A stretch of DNA of 21,977 nucleotides from a virus, in the IMG/VR virus record IMGVR_UViG_3300028654_000070, positions 1-21,977 of that record; one strand, 5' to 3'. A model generated the notes under the pieces. That model saw only the letters and a list, made by a program, of their open reading frames with translations. It searched no databases and had not been told where the DNA came from. Position numbers and translations under genes: made by a program. The stretch's first letter is position 1. Each line of letters begins with the position of its first letter. Below are positions 7,090 to 21,977 of the stretch, in pieces.

Positions 7090-8832
7090 ACTGAAACAAT
7101 AGAAGAGCCAATAGAAGAATTAGAAGATGTTGAAGACTTTGAATTGCCTAATGGTGAATTTATAGAGATTATTAAGTTAGGCCCTTCATACATATACATT
7201 ATCAAGGATGAGAAGGGCAATGAAGTAATGCAACGAAAGGGTGATACACCTAACCGTATTACAGAGGCATCGGCAGTTGGCAAAGAAATTAAACGATTAT
7301 TAGACCCTAAAAAGGAATATACTAAGTCGGCGATTAAAGATAAATTTATACTTGCAATGCAAGCGTTACAACAATATTGGGAAGCCAAGAGTTTGGTTGA
7401 ACAGAAACGCAATGTAATGACAGAAGTTGATACTGAGAAGATACGACTTGAACGGGTTGAGAATGGGTTTAAGCATTTAGATGAACTCACACGTCCTATA
7501 CTATGGACTGCCAGTACAATTGATTGGTTTACCGCAGGGGAACGGATGAATATTCTACTTGCTTGGATATGTTTCGTAGGCCAAGTAGTGCTAAAAGAAC
7601 AGATAAGCGTGATTCTTGAAGGCGAAGGGTCACAAGGTAAAACCCACATCCAAGACACAGCACTGGAATTAATACCACAAGAACATGTCTTAAATGTGAA
7701 ATCGGCAACAATGGCCGTTGTATATGCAATGGCAGATAAAGACCCATGGTATTTTGATGGAATGATAATTAACATGGGCGATATGGGAGGTCAGAATGAC
7801 CATGAAGAGGCAGATGAATTCAAGAATATAATGAAAGAATTACAAAGTGATGGACATGTAATGCGTACAAAGATGGTTAAAGGTGCTGACGGTGAACCAA
7901 CACCAAAAGAGTTTCACCTATATGGACATCCAATCATTACCTACACTAATGTGCCCGGTCATGACTATGATGACCAAGAAATGAGCCGTAGCATATTACA
8001 GCAACCATTACCTCGTAAATATCACCAAACCGCATTCATGATATTTAAACGCCTGAACAAACAAAAAGGTACAAAAAGTGCAAAACTAATACAGGAACAC
8101 CGTGACATGATACCTGCCATTAGAGATATGGTAAGAGCGTTACGCAAACGATTGGAAACAGTGACAATCTACAACCCTTATTGGAGTTTCATGGAAGAGT
8201 ATCTTGCTAATAGTAAATATATATTCAGGGATACTGACAAGTACGATGCAATATTAAGGGTTATCACCTGTATCAATGGTTATAATCGTAAGATATATGA
8301 TGTTGATGGTCAACCTACATTGTTTACAACCAAAGAAGATATTGGGTTCTTTTTGGAGTTACTTGACCAATACCATAAAAGTATTGTATCTAACATGTCA
8401 CCCGGTGCCATGGATTTACTCAACAACTTGACAGAGAAAGCAGATATATGGTTTGGAGATGACCGTGGTGCTGATGAGCAATATACATTTAGAAAGGGGT
8501 TGACTATTTCAGATTACATTGAAGAGTCCAGTACCTCTCTATCACGGACTACATTACAACGATATTTTAAAGAACTTGCAGATGTGGGTTATTTGAAAAT
8601 TATTGGTAACGAAAGCCGTGAATATCTATACGATATTGGTAAGGACAGCGTAATTGACGACATGGGTAAAGTTAACTTATCAGAATTAGACCTTAAAATC
8701 ATGGAATTCAACTACGGGTCTGATATAATCGCTACTTTTGAAGATGGGTGGATTGAGGATATTCATTTATGGGATATGCACCCTGATGTTGATGCTCCTA
8801 TGTGGAATAAATATCTGTCCAAAAAAATGTGA
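7087..8832 (+). CDS. P-loop helicase/primase-like replication ATPase
   Basis: About 581 residues if started at ACG 7087, or 562 from TTG 7144. Walker A is GEGSQGKT (about 179-186) and a Walker-B-like hydrophobic strand is MIINMGDMGG (about 226-235). A later Asn and Arg-rich stretch (IITYTNVPG, MSRSILQQPLPRKYHQ) resembles sensor regions of virus replication ATPases of the virulence-E/D5-like type. The C-terminus (SLSRTTLQRYFKELADVGYL) is a winged helix. It probably unwinds viral DNA at the origin, and follows the ERF gene. The frame is open from 7036 and the SD at 7075-7082 points to 7087, which would give MTETIEEPIEELEDVEDFEL at the N-terminus. TTG 7144 is the conventional alternative. Confidence 0.85.
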   Translation, partial: TTETIEEPIEELEDVEDFELPNGEFIEIIKLGPSYIYIIKDEKGNEVMQRKGDTPNRITEASAVGKEIKRLLDPKKEYTKSAIKDKFILAMQALQQYWEAKSLVEQKRNVMTEVDTEKIRLERVENGFKHLDELTRPILWTASTIDWFTAGERMNILLAWICFVGQVVLKEQISVILEGEGSQGKTHIQDTALELIPQEHVLNVKSATMAVVYAMADKDPWYFDGMIINMGDMGGQNDHEEADEFKNIMKELQSDGHVMRTKMVKGADGEPTPKEFHLYGHPIITYTNVPGHDYDDQEMSRSILQQPLPRKYHQTAFMIFKRLNKQKGTKSAKLIQEHRDMIPAIRDMVRALRKRLETVTIYNPYWSFMEEYLANSKYIFRDTDKYDAILRVITCINGYNRKIYDVDGQPTLFTTKEDIGFFLELLDQYHKSIVSNMSPGAMDLLNNLTEKADIWFGDDRGADEQYTFRKGLTISDYIEESSTSLSRTTLQRYFKELADVGYLKIIGNESREYLYDIGKDSVIDDMGKVNLSELDLKIMEFNYGSDIIATFEDGWIEDIHLWDMHPDVDAPMWNKYLSKKM

Positions 8833-12529: not shown

Positions 12530-13291
12530 GTGAGGAATTGTAAAATATGCGGAACCGTGTTGGTCAAGGTTGACGGCTCACTGTGTGAGTTCTGCTATGC
12601 ACGAAACAAGCACCTTATCAGAACTTGTGAATGGTGTGGTGATGAGTTTATTGTTAAGAGTGCGTTCAGTCAAGACAAATACTGTTCTGATGAGCATAAG
12701 AAGGAAGCGAAGAAAGATAAAACGAATCAGAGGGTTAGAAAATACCGTAAACAGAATAAGTTGAAGGATAATTTGAGAACAGTTGGAACCACTACTATTA
12801 GTCCACATCCTATGATTAATTCTGTTATGAAAATGAGTTGTACTTACCTTGGTGTGTATATCCCGTATCTTGAATTTTATGAAGAACAAAAGTTAATACA
12901 AAATGAGAGATTGCGTAATACCAGCGTTAGTACAAGTAGTAAGGGAAAGCGTAATAATAATTTTTGGATTGATTATACGGGAACGATGGAATATGGGTCA
13001 AAACAACCAATCGGCATACAAATTACACACAACTATGCAAACTTTAACGATTACTTCAACATGGCCGTATCTTACTGGATGGAAACGTCATCCAAATGCC
13101 CTGAATGTGGCAGTACACACCACCTGCGAGATGTGAGCCGTGCAGAGATAAGTTGTGAATGTGGATTACTATTAGCAGGCCCGCCACATAGAAGCGTGAC
13201 ATATCCAACCGATAACTACCCAAATATCCCTATTGCGAAATATAGTCATGAACACAAATGGAAGAAAAGAAGAGTTGAGGACGATGGCTGA
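12530..13291 (+). CDS. Multi-zinc-finger protein with TFB-like ribbon
   Basis: 253 residues. The N-terminus has CKICG and CEFC (residues 4-22), then CEWCGDEF...KYCSDEH (34-55), two zinc knuckles, followed by a very basic helix (KKEAKKDKTNQRVRKYRKQN). The C-terminus has CPECGSTHHLRDVSRAEISC then ECGLLLAGPP (about 190-218), like the zinc ribbon of archaeal TFB/eukaryotic TFIIB, except that the second pair is CxC rather than CxxC. No cyclin-like TFB core is present. It has its own promoter and lies at the boundary between early and late genes, so a role in late transcription is attractive but inferred. It overlaps the next gene by eight bases. Confidence 0.78.
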   Translation: MRNCKICGTVLVKVDGSLCEFCYARNKHLIRTCEWCGDEFIVKSAFSQDKYCSDEHKKEAKKDKTNQRVRKYRKQNKLKDNLRTVGTTTISPHPMINSVMKMSCTYLGVYIPYLEFYEEQKLIQNERLRNTSVSTSSKGKRNNNFWIDYTGTMEYGSKQPIGIQITHNYANFNDYFNMAVSYWMETSSKCPECGSTHHLRDVSRAEISCECGLLLAGPPHRSVTYPTDNYPNIPIAKYSHEHKWKKRRVEDDG

Positions 13292-15341: not shown

Positions 15342-15788
15342 TTGAGAGATAAAGATGGGATGTACTATAAACGGACTGTAAAGGATGAACATGGACTAAT
15401 ATACAAATACCATGACACTTACAAATTGAAGGGAAAGGATATGAAACTTTTATACATAGCAGGCAAACTCAACGGTGATGCCTGTGAATACATCCGAAAC
15501 ATGAACACCATGGTAAACTATGCAGAACGTGTACGCCAACTCGGATGTGCAGTCACGGTGCCCTGTAACGACTTCATACAAGGAGCCATAATAGGCGAAT
15601 ATAACTATGATGACTATTTTGATAACAATGTTGAACTAATGAAACGATGCGATGCAATTGCACTATGTCCTAATTGGATGGGTAGCAAAGGCGTAACCAG
15701 AGAAATAGAGATAGCACAAGACCTTAAAATTCCTGTTCTATTTGACTTTGTTGAAGTACGCCGATTCATAGATGGGGTGATACTATAA
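15342..15788 (+). CDS. DUF4406 / nucleoside deoxyribosyltransferase-like protein
   Basis: 148 residues. From residue ~34: MKLLYIAGKLNGDACEYIRN, then YAERVRQLGCAVTVPCNDFI, CDAIALCPNWMGSKGVTREI, a Rossmann-like layout typical of DUF4406 and nucleoside 2-deoxyribosyltransferase-like proteins (substrate loop near GKL, acidic DYFDNN, SKGV.EIEIA helix). It may act on nucleotides. TTG 15342 follows the previous stop; an internal ATG at 15441 with AAAGGAT upstream would give just the core domain. The stop TAA overlaps the ATA proposed as the next gene's start. Confidence 0.8.
   Translation: MRDKDGMYYKRTVKDEHGLIYKYHDTYKLKGKDMKLLYIAGKLNGDACEYIRNMNTMVNYAERVRQLGCAVTVPCNDFIQGAIIGEYNYDDYFDNNVELMKRCDAIALCPNWMGSKGVTREIEIAQDLKIPVLFDFVEVRRFIDGVIL
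15776..15787 (+). promoter_or_regulatory. SD with ATA in the start position
   Basis: GGTGAT (15776-15781) is followed after three bases by ATA (15785-15787), which overlaps the previous gene's TAA as ATAA. No ATG, GTG or TTG exists in this frame between there and TTG 15863. Confidence 0.5.
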
Positions 15789-16429
15789 CGTGTATAGTAG
15801 GTCTTATAGACGATGATAACATTTACATAGGTGGTGATAAACTTGCAACCAATGAATCAGGATTGTGTTATCACCAAAGTAAAAAGAAAGTATGGCATAA
15901 GAAAGACACCATACGTAATATTGATATGATATTTGGAAGTGCAGGCAGTGTACGTGGAGCCCAACTACTTGCATATAGCAGTACAATAAGTCCACCACAA
16001 GCAGGTCAACCCTTAGAGGAATATTTAACCATAGACTTTACACGTGCAATGAAATTAGCACTTGCCACAGGCGGTGAATTATTTGCTCATCATGGAATTG
16101 AACTCGGGTTCAATCATTTCCTATTAGGGTTCCAAGGACGACTTTTTAGTTTTTATGAAGACTTCTGTTTCATAGAGGTAGTGGAGAAATACACTGCCGT
16201 TGGAAGTGGTAGTCGATTTGCACTTGGTTCACTGTACAGTACAGAGAATAGTGACCTGACAAGTGAGCAAAGGATAGAATTAGCCCTTGAATGTGCAGAA
16301 TATTATGACGCTTATGTAATGGGTGATTATGATATAGTATCAATACCACGAGAAGACCCTGTTGACAAAGCAATGGGCGATATATTGGCGAAAGCCCAAG
16401 ATAAGATGAGTGAGGACGAAGGTGATTAA
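15785..16429 (+). CDS. Proteasome beta/HslV-like Ntn-hydrolase
   Basis: About 214 residues if started at ATA 15785, giving M-TCIVGLIDDDNIYIGGDKL at the N-terminus: a Thr2 nucleophile after the initiator Met, then the strand and GGD loop typical of proteasome-type Ntn hydrolases. Further family marks are KKKVWHK (possible catalytic Lys region), IFGSAGSVRGAQLL, YTAVGSGSRFALGSLYS and LALECAEYYDAYVMGDYDIV. Starting at TTG 15863 would remove the nucleophile and first two strands. SD GGTGAT and a 4-base overlap with the previous stop (ATAA) support 15785. It lies just before the terminase, suggesting a role in head maturation or protein turnover, as for HslV-like proteins seen in some phages; substrate unknown. 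Confidence 0.8.
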   Translation: MTCIVGLIDDDNIYIGGDKLATNESGLCYHQSKKKVWHKKDTIRNIDMIFGSAGSVRGAQLLAYSSTISPPQAGQPLEEYLTIDFTRAMKLALATGGELFAHHGIELGFNHFLLGFQGRLFSFYEDFCFIEVVEKYTAVGSGSRFALGSLYSTENSDLTSEQRIELALECAEYYDAYVMGDYDIVSIPREDPVDKAMGDILAKAQDKMSEDEGD

Positions 16430-17192: not shown

Positions 17193-18543
17193 TCCCGTTG
17201 AATTGGCCAAGGTCGATACTCAGTTCAAGTATATGAGTCCTGCTCACATTCTGGAAATCAACAGGTTCTTGTTACAGATAGCAGAGCGTAAGATTAAACG
17301 CTTTGCTGTTTTCTTGCCTCCACGTCATGGTAAGTCTGAACTTATCAGTAAATATTTTACAGCATGGTACCTTGCAACACATCCTGATGATAGGGTTATA
17401 CTTGCAAGTTATGAGGCTGATTTTGCTGCGACATGGGGAGCAAAGGCAAGAAATATAATCGAAACACATGGAAGTGACTTTAAAGATAACATTACCATTG
17501 ATGAAAACAGTAAGGCAAGGAATAGATGGGATATAAAAGACCACAACGGTGGAATGATGACCGCTGGTGTAGGTGGCCCTATCACAGGTAAAGGTGCAGA
17601 CTTACTAATTATTGATGACCCTGTGAAAAACTTTGAAGAGGCTAACAGTGCCACCTATCGTGATAAAGCATGGGATTGGTACACTACAACGGCTTATACA
17701 AGGTTAGAACCAGATGGTGCAATTATACTTATTCAGACACGATGGCATGAAGATGACCTTGCAGGAAGGATCCTCGCCAACAGTAAAGAAGATTGGACAA
17801 TATTGGAACTGCCGGCATTAGATGAACATGGACATGCACTATGGCCTGAACGATTCAATACAGAGGATATTAACAATATAAAGGAAGAAATAGGCAGTTA
17901 CCAGTTTGAAGCGTTATATCAACAACACCCACAACCTGCAACAGGTGGATTACTCAAACGTGACTGGTTAGATTATTATGATAAAAAAGGATTAAACATA
18001 GCAGCATTTACCAAATACACAGGTTGGGATTTGGCAATAAGTACCAAACAAACAGCCGATTACACATGCAGTTGCACAGTAGCCCATAACACCAAGACTA
18101 ATGATATATATGTACGGGATTGGACACGTGACCATATAACATTTCCAGAACAGTTAAGCATGGTTAACAGTCAATATGACAAGTACCACCCTATGTTGAT
18201 TGGAATAGAAACCAACGCATACCAAGCAGCATTACCACAACAACTGTTAAAGGATAGGATATTACCTATTAGGAACATGCCAAGTGTTAAAGATAAAGTG
18301 ACACGTATTACTTCTACTTTTACAATGTTTGAACAGGGCAAAGTACACCTGCCCAAAGACCACCCGTTACTTGATGAATTTGAGAAAGAATATACCACGT
18401 TCCCAAGAGGAACACATGATGACCTGTTAGACGCAACGGAGATGGCAATAAGCCTGTGTAGTCAAGGCGGTGGTAATCCTTACGGTACATCTGGTGCATC
18501 CTATGAATTCAGCCGTGCAAGAAGGAATAAACAAAGAAGATAA
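17176..18543 (+). CDS. terL: Terminase large subunit (packaging ATPase/nuclease)
   Basis: 455 residues from ATG 17176 (473 from ATG 17122). ATPase motifs: Walker A PPRHGKSE (about 48-55), Walker B LLIIDDP, and an Arg/coupling region (ILIQTRWHEDDLAGRIL). The C-terminal RNase-H-like nuclease shows acidic residues in YTGWDLAIS, LIGIETNAYQ and DDLLDATEMA. It powers DNA packaging into the prohead and cuts the genome. I prefer 17176 because it gives a 17-base overlap with terS; 17122 would overlap by 71 bases. Neither has a strong SD, so coupling is likely. Confidence 0.95.
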   Translation: MRKQISPVELAKVDTQFKYMSPAHILEINRFLLQIAERKIKRFAVFLPPRHGKSELISKYFTAWYLATHPDDRVILASYEADFAATWGAKARNIIETHGSDFKDNITIDENSKARNRWDIKDHNGGMMTAGVGGPITGKGADLLIIDDPVKNFEEANSATYRDKAWDWYTTTAYTRLEPDGAIILIQTRWHEDDLAGRILANSKEDWTILELPALDEHGHALWPERFNTEDINNIKEEIGSYQFEALYQQHPQPATGGLLKRDWLDYYDKKGLNIAAFTKYTGWDLAISTKQTADYTCSCTVAHNTKTNDIYVRDWTRDHITFPEQLSMVNSQYDKYHPMLIGIETNAYQAALPQQLLKDRILPIRNMPSVKDKVTRITSTFTMFEQGKVHLPKDHPLLDEFEKEYTTFPRGTHDDLLDATEMAISLCSQGGGNPYGTSGASYEFSRARRNKQRR

Positions 18544-18558
18544 TATTGGAGGATTTTT

Positions 18559-19968
18559 ATGGGAATAACAGACAGTATCAGATTAAGATTACAGGCGGCA
18601 CTATCACCCCAACAGATGACAACGCAGATGTCACGTTCAACCAACAGGGCAATGAATGACTTTGAACACTTGTTTGGTATTAAATATAAACAGACTGGTG
18701 ATTTAACTTTTAAAGAGTATGATAAAATGATGCAGGACTCGCAAATTAAAGCGGGTTATGAACTTATCCGTATGTTCCTTTTAACACGTAAACTCATCAT
18801 TACACCGGCATCAGATGACCCAAAGGACAAGGAAATCGCAGATGCCATTGAAGACATGTTCAATAACATGGACTATCCACTGCGTAAGGTAAGAAACGAC
18901 ATATACAGTGCATTACCTTATGGTTACAGTGTAGGTGAGATTATATGGAAATATAATGAGGATACAGACTTAACAGAACTCAAAAGGATACGCCCTATTC
19001 CAATCAGTACATTACAGAACTGTTTTAGTTATGATGAGAACGGTGACCTTGACACTATCACACAAACAATTGAAGGTGAAGACCCTATACCTATTCCCGC
19101 AGAGAAGTGTCTTGTTTACAGTTATGATGAGAAGTTTGGTGACCGTAGTGGTAGAAGTATCCTTGATGCTTGTTATGATAACTGGTATATGAAACAAAAG
19201 GTACTGGCTATGTGGAATGTGTTTTTAGAGAAACATGAAGGCCCTACACTTGCAGCGTTCCTTGAAAACCAACAATTCAAAGAGGACGCAATAGATGGAT
19301 TGGAACAGATACATGAAGGCCGTGCAAACATTACCATGGGTCAAGGTGACCGTTTAGAAGTTATAGAGTCATCACATCGTGGTGAAGGTTTCCAGACAGC
19401 AATCGAGTATCATGACACCATGATATTCAGGAAGATGAACATAGGAACCATGATATTAGGCCAGCAAAATGGTCGTGGTGCATACGCACAAAGTCAAACA
19501 CAAAATGATGTCCTTAATGTATTCCTTGATGGTGTTAATGAAGATGTTGCAGCCGAATTACAGATTAAAGTTCAGGAATTATGTGATATGAATTGGGAAG
19601 GTATTACAGACTATCCCACAGTATCATTTGAACTATTTGAACAAAAAGATTTACTTGGACTTATACAGGCATTAGAACCTTATGTAAAGGATTTATCCAT
19701 AGACCCTAACAGTGGATGGTTTAAACAGTTAATTGCCGATGTTGTTAGTAGATACAGTGATGTTGACACTTCTGATTTAACAGAAGAGAAGAACGACCAA
19801 CAACCAATCGAGAATATTCAACAACCTATTCAGCAACATAATCAACAACCTACTAATCTACCAGATAATGGAGAGGTTACACCAACACCAGAAGAACAGA
19901 AAACCAGTGCAGACCAAGCCAATATGATAGGCGATGTCAACAACGCATTCAATATAAACAAGAAGTGA
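18559..19968 (+). CDS. Portal protein, DUF935/Mu gp29-like
   Basis: 469 residues. The core (about 60-390) matches the DUF935 type of portal: SALPYGYSVGEIIWKYNE, then RSILDACYDNWYMKQKVLAM, WNVFLEKHEGPTLAAF, MNIGTMILGQQNGRGAYAQS. Portals form the dodecameric ring through which DNA enters the head. The C-terminal ~70 residues are a Gln/Pro/Asn-rich tail (QQPIENIQQPIQQHNQQP), probably disordered. SD TTGGAGGAT precedes ATG 18559. It lies between terL and the Mu F-like gene, the standard order. Confidence 0.92.
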   Translation: MGITDSIRLRLQAALSPQQMTTQMSRSTNRAMNDFEHLFGIKYKQTGDLTFKEYDKMMQDSQIKAGYELIRMFLLTRKLIITPASDDPKDKEIADAIEDMFNNMDYPLRKVRNDIYSALPYGYSVGEIIWKYNEDTDLTELKRIRPIPISTLQNCFSYDENGDLDTITQTIEGEDPIPIPAEKCLVYSYDEKFGDRSGRSILDACYDNWYMKQKVLAMWNVFLEKHEGPTLAAFLENQQFKEDAIDGLEQIHEGRANITMGQGDRLEVIESSHRGEGFQTAIEYHDTMIFRKMNIGTMILGQQNGRGAYAQSQTQNDVLNVFLDGVNEDVAAELQIKVQELCDMNWEGITDYPTVSFELFEQKDLLGLIQALEPYVKDLSIDPNSGWFKQLIADVVSRYSDVDTSDLTEEKNDQQPIENIQQPIQQHNQQPTNLPDNGEVTPTPEEQKTSADQANMIGDVNNAFNINKK

Positions 19969-19974
19969 TAAGCC

Positions 19975-20790
19975 ATGTCTGTTGATGAGAAGAAACTGTC
20001 ATTGTTAAAGAAACGCCAACGGTTAGGTGAAACTAAACTTGAAAACATACTCATACGAGTAATGAAAGGACAGAAAACCGTACTTGGCAGAGCAAAGACA
20101 GTTGATGTACTAACCAGTTTAGTAGGAGCAAATATATTCCTTAAACCTTCCAGTGCGGCAGACATGGCTGAGTTCAAGGCATGGGTTGATAAGTTATACA
20201 ACTTTGGATTACACTATGTTGACACCACACCACCTGAACATGTCAAGTTAATGTCAGATATTGTACAGGAGAAGGTGATGGGGTTTGTATCCAAGATGGG
20301 TGACGATATAAAAGACGATGCGTTGAAGATTGTTTCTGATGGGGTTAAACAAGACCTATTACCTTATGATATATCAAAGCAACTGATACAACAGTTGGAT
20401 ATAAGTCAAACACGTGCCAAGGCCATTGCCCGTACAGAAACAATGAGGGCAAGTAACACAGCATCATTCTTACAGGCCAAAGAGAACGGTAACACCCACT
20501 TTGTTGTTGATAACCGAGAAGAGGCGTGTGAAGAATGTGTAGATGAATATGAAGGCCAAGTGTTCACGATAGGTGAAGATGACGGTGAACTGCCACCATT
20601 ACATGTAAACTGTGCATGTGTTGCCGTGTATTTTAATAACCAAGACGATGCCAGTGAATGGTCAGACCAATTACAAACAGAGAACAAAGACCAAAGAATA
20701 GAGATAGAAGATAAACAAGGATTTCCCATACCCACTGATGGTACAGGCCAATATCCTAACACACCAGAACCCAAGGGGAAATCAACATGA
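19975..20790 (+). CDS. Mu F / SPP1 gp7-like minor head protein
   Basis: 271 residues. The C-terminal domain carries ARTETMRASNTASFLQAKEN, then CEECVDEYEG and PPLHVNCACV: the Arg-Thr-Glu helix and Cys/His zinc residues of the phage Mu F-like (SPP1 gp7) family. These proteins sit inside the head near the portal and may be ejected with DNA. The N-terminus is helical. SD-like TGAT precedes ATG 19975; the stop overlaps the next ATG as ATGA. Confidence 0.92.
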   Translation: MSVDEKKLSLLKKRQRLGETKLENILIRVMKGQKTVLGRAKTVDVLTSLVGANIFLKPSSAADMAEFKAWVDKLYNFGLHYVDTTPPEHVKLMSDIVQEKVMGFVSKMGDDIKDDALKIVSDGVKQDLLPYDISKQLIQQLDISQTRAKAIARTETMRASNTASFLQAKENGNTHFVVDNREEACEECVDEYEGQVFTIGEDDGELPPLHVNCACVAVYFNNQDDASEWSDQLQTENKDQRIEIEDKQGFPIPTDGTGQYPNTPEPKGKST

Positions 20791-21977
20791 CAACAAGACA
20801 TACATTCACAATCATGGCAAGTGACCAACCAACCAAGCGAAGGCGTGTTGGTGATGGTGTCAGTCTAATATTAACAGATGATAAGGGAAAACTAAAAGCC
20901 CAATCATACGAGTTTAATCCAGAGAAATACACCTTTGAAGAGGCCCAAAGTTGGATTGACAAAGCAGGGGTTGATTATATTAAAAAGATTAATGCAAATT
21001 TAAGTTTAAAAGCATGGGATGGTAGTGCATCCAATTATACGCTTGAACAATGGAAGAACGCATGTGTAATGAAGGTATGTGACAAGGATGTTAAGGATTG
21101 TTACAAATTACCAGTCAAAACACCTGATGGAACATTAGATGAAGGCGGTGTAAAAGCAGCATGGGGAGTGTTAAATGGTAGTATGGGTGGAGTTAAAGCC
21201 TCACCTGAACTTATAGCACAAGCCAAGAAGACAGTTGACGGTTATTACAGTAAACTTGGAATTAAACACACAGTTAATGCAGCAAGGCCTGATGGTATGA
21301 TTTGGAGTAAAGGTATTCATCATGTTTATGTTAATGATAAGCCGGCACGAATCAAAGTGCCACAAGAAACTATAATGCAGACATTTCAAAGCATCCGTGA
21401 CATAATCAACCGTGATGGACGCATGAGTATAGGAATTGACCACCTATCTGATGATATATTGTTACAGAATGAAATCCTTGCCAAAATGAACCTACTTGAT
21501 GTAGGGGATGTAACCAAAGTAGGCACGGATGGGGATAGTATATTCCTATTAGATAGTGAGTTAACCAATGATAACATCCAAGAATTGTATGACAAAGGAG
21601 AAATTAACGCTTATAGTATCGTTGGAGGCATAGACGCAAAGCCATGCCCAACCGGCGAAGTAGATTATGTTGTTGAAAATGTAAATGTTGAACGGGTGGA
21701 TTTCGTAAATGAAGGCGGTTGCCAGATATGTAAGACAGGTGTTCAACCAAACGAACTGATTTTAACATCAAAGAATGCAAATATGGAGGATAAAAGTATG
21801 ACAGAAAATGAAGTTAATCCAACAGAAACTGTGGAGGAACCCCAAGAAGTGGTTACTAATGAAACAGAACAAGTAGATGAAACAGAAGTCGAAACAAGTG
21901 AGAATGTTGAAGAGAATGAGGTTATTGTGGAACCAGAAACACCCGCAACACCAGAGGGCTTTGACCCTGAGAAATTC
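20787..21977 (+). CDS. Prohead protease/scaffold fusion (runs off window)
   Basis: 397 codons are present with no stop before the window end. Residues ~70-160 hold a domain seen in phage head proteins (AWDGSASNYTLEQWKNACVM; KLPVKTPDGTLDEGGVKAAW). Residues ~185-310 look like a prohead protease: IDH in MSIGIDHLSDD, FLLDSELTNDNIQELYDKGE, then AYSIVGGID with a candidate Ser nucleophile. From ~338 on the chain is highly acidic, scaffold-like. An in-frame ATG at 21798 with SD GGAGGA would make the scaffold alone. ATG 20787 overlaps the Mu F-like stop (ATGA). Confidence 0.85.
   Translation, partial: MTTRHTFTIMASDQPTKRRRVGDGVSLILTDDKGKLKAQSYEFNPEKYTFEEAQSWIDKAGVDYIKKINANLSLKAWDGSASNYTLEQWKNACVMKVCDKDVKDCYKLPVKTPDGTLDEGGVKAAWGVLNGSMGGVKASPELIAQAKKTVDGYYSKLGIKHTVNAARPDGMIWSKGIHHVYVNDKPARIKVPQETIMQTFQSIRDIINRDGRMSIGIDHLSDDILLQNEILAKMNLLDVGDVTKVGTDGDSIFLLDSELTNDNIQELYDKGEINAYSIVGGIDAKPCPTGEVDYVVENVNVERVDFVNEGGCQICKTGVQPNELILTSKNANMEDKSMTENEVNPTETVEEPQEVVTNETEQVDETEVETSENVEENEVIVEPETPATPEGFDPEKF
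21785..21800 (+). promoter_or_regulatory. Internal SD and ATG for nested scaffold
   Basis: GGAGGA (21785-21790) lies seven bases before an in-frame ATG (21798-21800) inside the protease gene. The nested product begins MTENEVNPTETVEEPQEVVT, all acidic, as expected of a scaffold. Confidence 0.6.

Follow-up and report, generated by a model that had tools for sequence, protein, structure and literature searches.

AUA is among the rarest start codons, and in E. coli the genes infC and pcnB start with AUU. Conserved AUA and AUU starts with an extended Shine-Dalgarno sequence (SD) have been described in S. aureus for infC, ccpN and cvfC1, where reporters with a non-AUG codon gave about 10% of the AUG output and one AUA site gave up to 30% (PMC13009471). 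In both Haloferax volcanii and E. coli, genes whose stop and start codons overlap are coupled by termination-reinitiation (PMC6728339). For archaea and archaeal viruses, our search of the open-licence literature returned no report of an AUA start. An archaeal change from ATG to ATA has been recorded as a start-codon SNP in nadA, acquired in one engineered strain (PMC11834397). In Saccharolobus (Sulfolobus) solfataricus, initiation complexes formed on non-AUG mRNA are reported to be destabilised by aIF1 (cited in PMC6237735), which counts against AUA. The proteasome-like enzymes of group I (HslV/BPH/PPH/AAH) were found in a survey only in bacteria and bacteriophages (PMC8665760).

The window, i.e. 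the whole stretch of 21,977 bases analysed here, is an IMG/VR virus fragment and most likely belongs to a tailed virus of the Methanobacteriales, as its gene content indicates. The integrase is closest to those of the Methanobacterium/Methanothermobacter viruses psiM2 and psiM100 (33%), the large gene at 7144-8832 has its match in a Methanobacteriales virus, and genes for a large terminase, a Mu-type portal and head morphogenesis lie downstream of the region with the Ntn hydrolase gene. Relatives of the Ntn protein and the terminase were not found in genome contigs. The window also encodes a protein (12530-13291) whose match to a TFIIB-type zinc ribbon falls short of the Pfam cut-off, and a large protein (20787-21977) that is cut by the fragment end and shows distant similarity (26%) to a hypothetical protein of Haloarcula hispanica tailed virus 1. 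The features around the junction of interest are the following.

15441-15788, + strand: DUF4406/nucleoside 2-deoxyribosyltransferase-like gene (PF14359, PHROG_355), stop TAA at 15786-15788
15764-15766, + strand: ATT, the sole other near-start codon upstream in frame; rejected, no SD
15774-15781, + strand: Shine-Dalgarno-like GGGGTGAT, in the last part of the DUF4406 reading frame, three bases before ATA
15785-15787, + strand: proposed AUA initiation codon, homologous to the conventional starts of the family
15785-15788, + strand: ATAA, overlap of start AUA and stop UAA, read from the sequence
15785-16429, + strand: predicted proteasome-like (HslV/BPH-type) Ntn hydrolase gene, Met plus 213 residues (PHROG, Pfam, model)
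15788-15790, + strand: Thr1, predicted nucleophile after Met removal (conservation; residue-1 structural alignment)
15836-15838, + strand: Asp17, catalytic position, invariant in both alignments
15863-15865, + strand: TTG, first conventional in-frame start; rejected, deletes Thr1 and Asp17, poor SD
15887-15889, + strand: Lys34, equivalent of proteasome Lys33 (conservation)

According to the original prediction, ATA 15785 is the sole start from which a complete Ntn hydrolase can be read, no ATG, GTG or TTG precedes TTG 15863 in that frame, and ATA overlaps the previous stop. All three points hold on reading the frame. Upstream of ATA the Ntn frame is open only to 15755, with an in-frame TGA at 15752-15754, and between this stop and TTG 15863 there is no in-frame ATG, GTG or TTG. 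The ATA at 15785-15787 and the TAA of the upstream gene at 15786-15788 form the 4-nt overlap ATAA. The ATT at 15764 was rejected as a start, as it has no SD (-0.9 kcal/mol) and lies outside the family alignment. The prediction further held that the overlap copies those of many neighbours; 4-nt NTGA overlaps indeed exist in the window, but at five gene junctions (5949, 9950, 10909, 11273 and 20787), which is several rather than many. Outside the 4-nt overlaps TAA is the commonest stop in the window (18 of 30 complete genes). The upstream gene itself (Pfam PF14359, E=1.6e-13; PHROG_355) probably starts at ATG 15441, the residue at which the homologue in contig L142 also starts, and a longer reading frame from TTG 15342 is less likely.

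The gene product is, by sequence and model, a predicted proteasome-like Ntn hydrolase on the HslV/BPH side. It matches PHROG_1040 (E=3.9e-18) and Pfam PF00227 (24.5 bits, cut-off 22.4), and an AlphaFold2 model built with 50 locus-derived sequences has a pLDDT of 93.3 and the four-layer Ntn fold. The best solved structures are BPH (5ovs, Z 22.3 over 175 residues) and HslV (Z about 20), and residue 1 of the model aligns with residue 1 of both. Thr1 occurs in 12 of the 13 homologues from a phage collection, the remaining one having Ser, and is invariant in the alignment derived from a sequence pattern, which itself required Thr. Asp17 is invariant in the independently chosen phage set as well as in the pattern-derived set (where the pattern demanded it), and Lys34, at a position that the pattern left unconstrained, is conserved in at least 90% of the latter. 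The Thr1/Asp17/Lys33 arrangement with an N-terminal Thr would thus be present if AUA is the start, with Met presumably removed.

The strong evidence for the proposed ATA start is the alignment of the protein family and not the SD. Read at the DNA level, each of the 13 phage homologues has ATG, GTG or TTG in the homologous place, and in most of them the translation from there is M-T-C-I. A pattern scan of IMG/VR, in which the preceding codon was left free, yielded a sample of at least 120 homologues; all 120 listed were confirmed by a profile that combined the phage set with the window protein. Among these 120 matches listed, 112 have a conventional start exactly at the homologous codon (ATG 87, GTG 21, TTG 4); the others have ATA (2), ATT (1), AGC (3), TTA (1) or GGA (1). 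In the AGC, TTA and GGA homologues start codons are found a few to several codons upstream, giving N-terminal extensions. In line with what the original prediction had proposed as a check, relatives begin M-T-C-I-V-G at exactly the position of the ATA codon, and the alignment places the start there with no conventional alternative at hand.

Targeted scans of IMG/VR, for ATA with flexible spacing and for ATA, ATT and ATC with fixed spacing, gave complete listings and revealed three near-cognate lineages: that of the window, that of contigs L142 and L222, and that of L186 and L272. The last has ATT at the family start position (L186:13622-13624; L272:1840-1842); an AAGGAG SD of the GGAG type lies 4 nt from it, and upstream the frame offers no conventional start. 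By its sequence this is a second natural near-cognate start within the Ntn family. Some further observations concern family members elsewhere. In L127 (8101-8115) and L251, TTA stands at the usual start; with an ATG three codons before it the protein would begin MKNLTCIVG and carry a short N-terminal extension that would have to be removed. The deposited HslV-family gene of Moorella phage MTATph1 (L004:401-445, OR602862.1) starts 14 codons late; since the family alignment puts its start at TTG 401, the deposited annotation drops the catalytic Thr. One virus carries two different Ntn homologues head to tail (L228:1931-3067).

The ATA is found in both contigs of the window lineage that span the start. 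The second of these, L002 (metagenome 3300031242), shows 22 differences to the window over 4,943 positions, none of which alters the ATAA; a relative with ATG at this position had been named as evidence against the proposal, and this independent, near-identical contig has ATA. The Ntn genes of the window and L002 differ at one position and those of L142 and L222 at two, and as all three differences are synonymous the gene looks maintained, small as these numbers are. Elsewhere, the sites at which the window and its near-identical contigs disagree cluster in the portal gene (19236-19614) and in a short stretch of the terminase (17691-17814), which suggests local recombination.

The lineage of L142 and L222, two contigs from different metagenomes, has an Ntn protein only 34% identical to that of the window. 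The gene directly upstream again encodes a DUF4406 protein (34% identical), the junction again reads ATAA, and an SD-like AGGACGUGGUU (-9.0 kcal/mol) lies three bases before ATA. The gene preceding DUF4406 in this lineage matches a pseudomurein endo-isopeptidase (PF12386), which points to a Methanobacteriales host. The occurrence of the same ATA in the same overlap of a distant methanogen virus suggests that it is probably real and kept, rather than a sequencing error. In a Pfam scan of the upstream neighbours of 70 homologues, DUF4406 came up twice, in exactly the two ATA starters; if the labels were independent the odds of this coincidence would be about 1 in 2,400, a figure that ignores kinship. 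The tree joins the Ntn proteins of the window and L142 with weak support (79/54), and the nearest relatives of the DUF4406 proteins are found in other viruses that have no Ntn gene.

These two lineages bear on several other explanations. Since the window and its near twin L002 are both metagenome assemblies, a sequencing or assembly error at 15787 might be suspected. However, L002 retains ATA despite its scattered SNPs, so that ATA is no single-contig error, and two contigs of a distant lineage share the ATA position; an error is therefore scarcely credible. It is also unlikely that the gene is decaying, having lost its start by a change from ATG to ATA so that the protein is absent or made in traces. 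ATG is the family norm (87 of the 120 matches listed), one G-to-A change turns it into ATA, and the near-identical L002 could share a recent loss; yet the reading frame is intact, with its catalytic residues and a confidently predicted fold, the few differences within the lineages are synonymous, a lineage of 34% identity has ATA at the same junction, and the SD exceeds that of most genes in the window.

A -1 ribosomal frameshift from DUF4406, producing a fusion from which Thr is exposed by self-processing, would fit the Ntn frame, which is -1 relative to DUF4406 in both ATA lineages, and proteasome beta subunits are able to remove propeptides. The window, however, has no X-XXY-YYZ heptamer (GAT GGG GTG ATA CTA TAA), and in L142 the match is no more than partial (G TTA AAA); a conserved slippery site is thus lacking. 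Homologues lacking DUF4406 start directly at Met-Thr. We regard such a frameshift as highly improbable.

The SD itself was assessed by its pairing with the archaeal anti-SD. As predicted, GGTGAT (15776-15781) stops three bases short of ATA, and the 20 nt upstream of ATA, with AUCACCUCCU, pair at -11.6 kcal/mol, an extended SD at a usable distance of 2-3 nt. This is stronger than for most genes in the window (median -6.7 kcal/mol over 37 likely gene starts), and only three of the 716 ATA trinucleotides in the window, ATA 15785 included, have an SD as good as this at usable spacing. Both ATA lineages have an SD-like match 2-3 nt upstream of ATA. Across 1.9 Mb of viral DNA, SDs were not enriched at ATAA junctions generally (3 of 65): the rate resembles that of the CTAA, GTAA and TTAA controls, whereas 41 of 231 ATGA junctions have an SD. 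Of the three SD-bearing ATAA junctions, one belongs to the window lineage and two represent a single locus where an ordinary ATG directly follows ATA. That viral DNA makes general use of such ATAA starts was thus rejected, the SD frequency being no higher than in the non-start controls. It follows that the SD supports but does not prove an ATA start, and that the junction in the window is a special case and not part of a widespread habit.

The SD also helps to weigh a conventional start elsewhere, at TTG 15863 in the window or at a GTG three codons upstream of ATA in L142 and L222. Standard gene finders take only ATG, GTG and TTG and would therefore begin at TTG 15863, giving an enzyme without the catalytic Thr and Asp; a GTG is indeed present in L142 as a possible alternative, and a few homologues (L126, L127, L199) have short N-terminal extensions. 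We nevertheless consider a conventional start very unlikely. TTG 15863 was rejected because it would strip Thr1, Asp17 and predicted strands 1-4 and has no usable SD (-3.1 kcal/mol, spacing zero). An upstream in-frame GTG is lacking in the window, and the one in L142 falls within the stretch that pairs as SD (-3.6 kcal/mol at spacing 0, versus -9.0 kcal/mol at spacing 3 for ATA).

It appears, then, that AUA 15785 is the probable start of the Ntn hydrolase. The coupled AUA start of the original prediction is supported by the family alignment, the L002 contig and the 34%-identical relative with the same ATAA after DUF4406. We consider it quite likely, taking the proposal as a whole, that AUA is a real start at which ribosomes terminating on DUF4406 begin anew, giving a low dose of enzyme. 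The SD GGGGTGAT (15774-15781) lies within the upstream reading frame and the stop and start overlap (ATAA, 15785-15788). Ribosomes would terminate at the UAA of DUF4406, be held by the strong Shine-Dalgarno GGGGUGAU and restart one base back on AUA, using ordinary initiator Met-tRNA with the third codon position mispaired. An unusual viral tRNA that decodes the AUA start was rejected: no unusual tRNA was found, as the window has no tRNA and L142 has only a tRNA-Gln. Met would be removed before Thr, exposing Thr1, with TCIVGLIDDDNIYIGGDK as the expected N-terminal peptide. Synthesis from AUA would be low, and the dose of enzyme would be tied to the translation of DUF4406.

The overlap may also explain the origin of the AUA. 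An NTGA overlap is present in 33 of 88 homologues, and ATAA is one transition away from ATGA. The start probably arose from an ATGA overlap by a single G-to-A change, which would have made TAA of the TGA stop and, at the same stroke, AUA of the AUG start. Such a change keeps the upstream stop and demotes the downstream start, and as TAA is the commonest stop in the window, we infer that it may be favoured by the upstream gene. A broader reading is that Methanobacteriales viruses keep a dedicated AUA within a UAA/AUA overlap, so that only restarting ribosomes make the enzyme, in low dose; this is possible, and we offer it tentatively. If true, no earlier conserved AUA start in an archaeal system is known to us, and the case would define a class of overlap whose upstream stop is under selection (TGA to TAA), with the strength of the downstream start set by it. 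The ATAA overlap likewise suggests a simple evolutionary rule: when the stop codon of one gene changes, the start of the gene behind it can be weakened. With a natural AUA start in an archaeal virus one could probe the stringency with which archaeal initiation factors reject non-AUG codons, and also whether reinitiation relaxes the archaeal start-codon check.

Finally, with infC, ccpN and cvfC1 of S. aureus and infC and pcnB of E. coli the locus has in common a probable near-cognate start, a strong SD and an expected low expression, and perhaps also conservation among relatives (ATA in the window lineage and in the 34%-identical lineage, a pairing with weak tree support, 79/54, the latter lineage having the GTG as a possible alternative). 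It is unlike those cases in being found in an archaeal tailed virus, in its 4-nt overlap with a stop codon and in encoding a predicted proteasome-like enzyme. With the ATGA systems of termination-reinitiation (PMC6728339) it shares the 4-nt overlap and an SD inside the upstream gene, but its overlap is ATAA, with stop TAA and start AUA. The predicted fold, Thr1/Asp17/Lys33 and the start directly at Met-Thr are common to the phage proteasome-like homologues (PHROG_1040; the PPH/AAH clusters of PMC8665760) and BPH/HslV; unlike phage PPH/AAH and BPH/HslV, the window protein belongs to a Methanobacteriales virus. Near-cognate starts themselves are known, and what is new here is the probable use of such a start in archaeal viruses, within an ATAA overlap.
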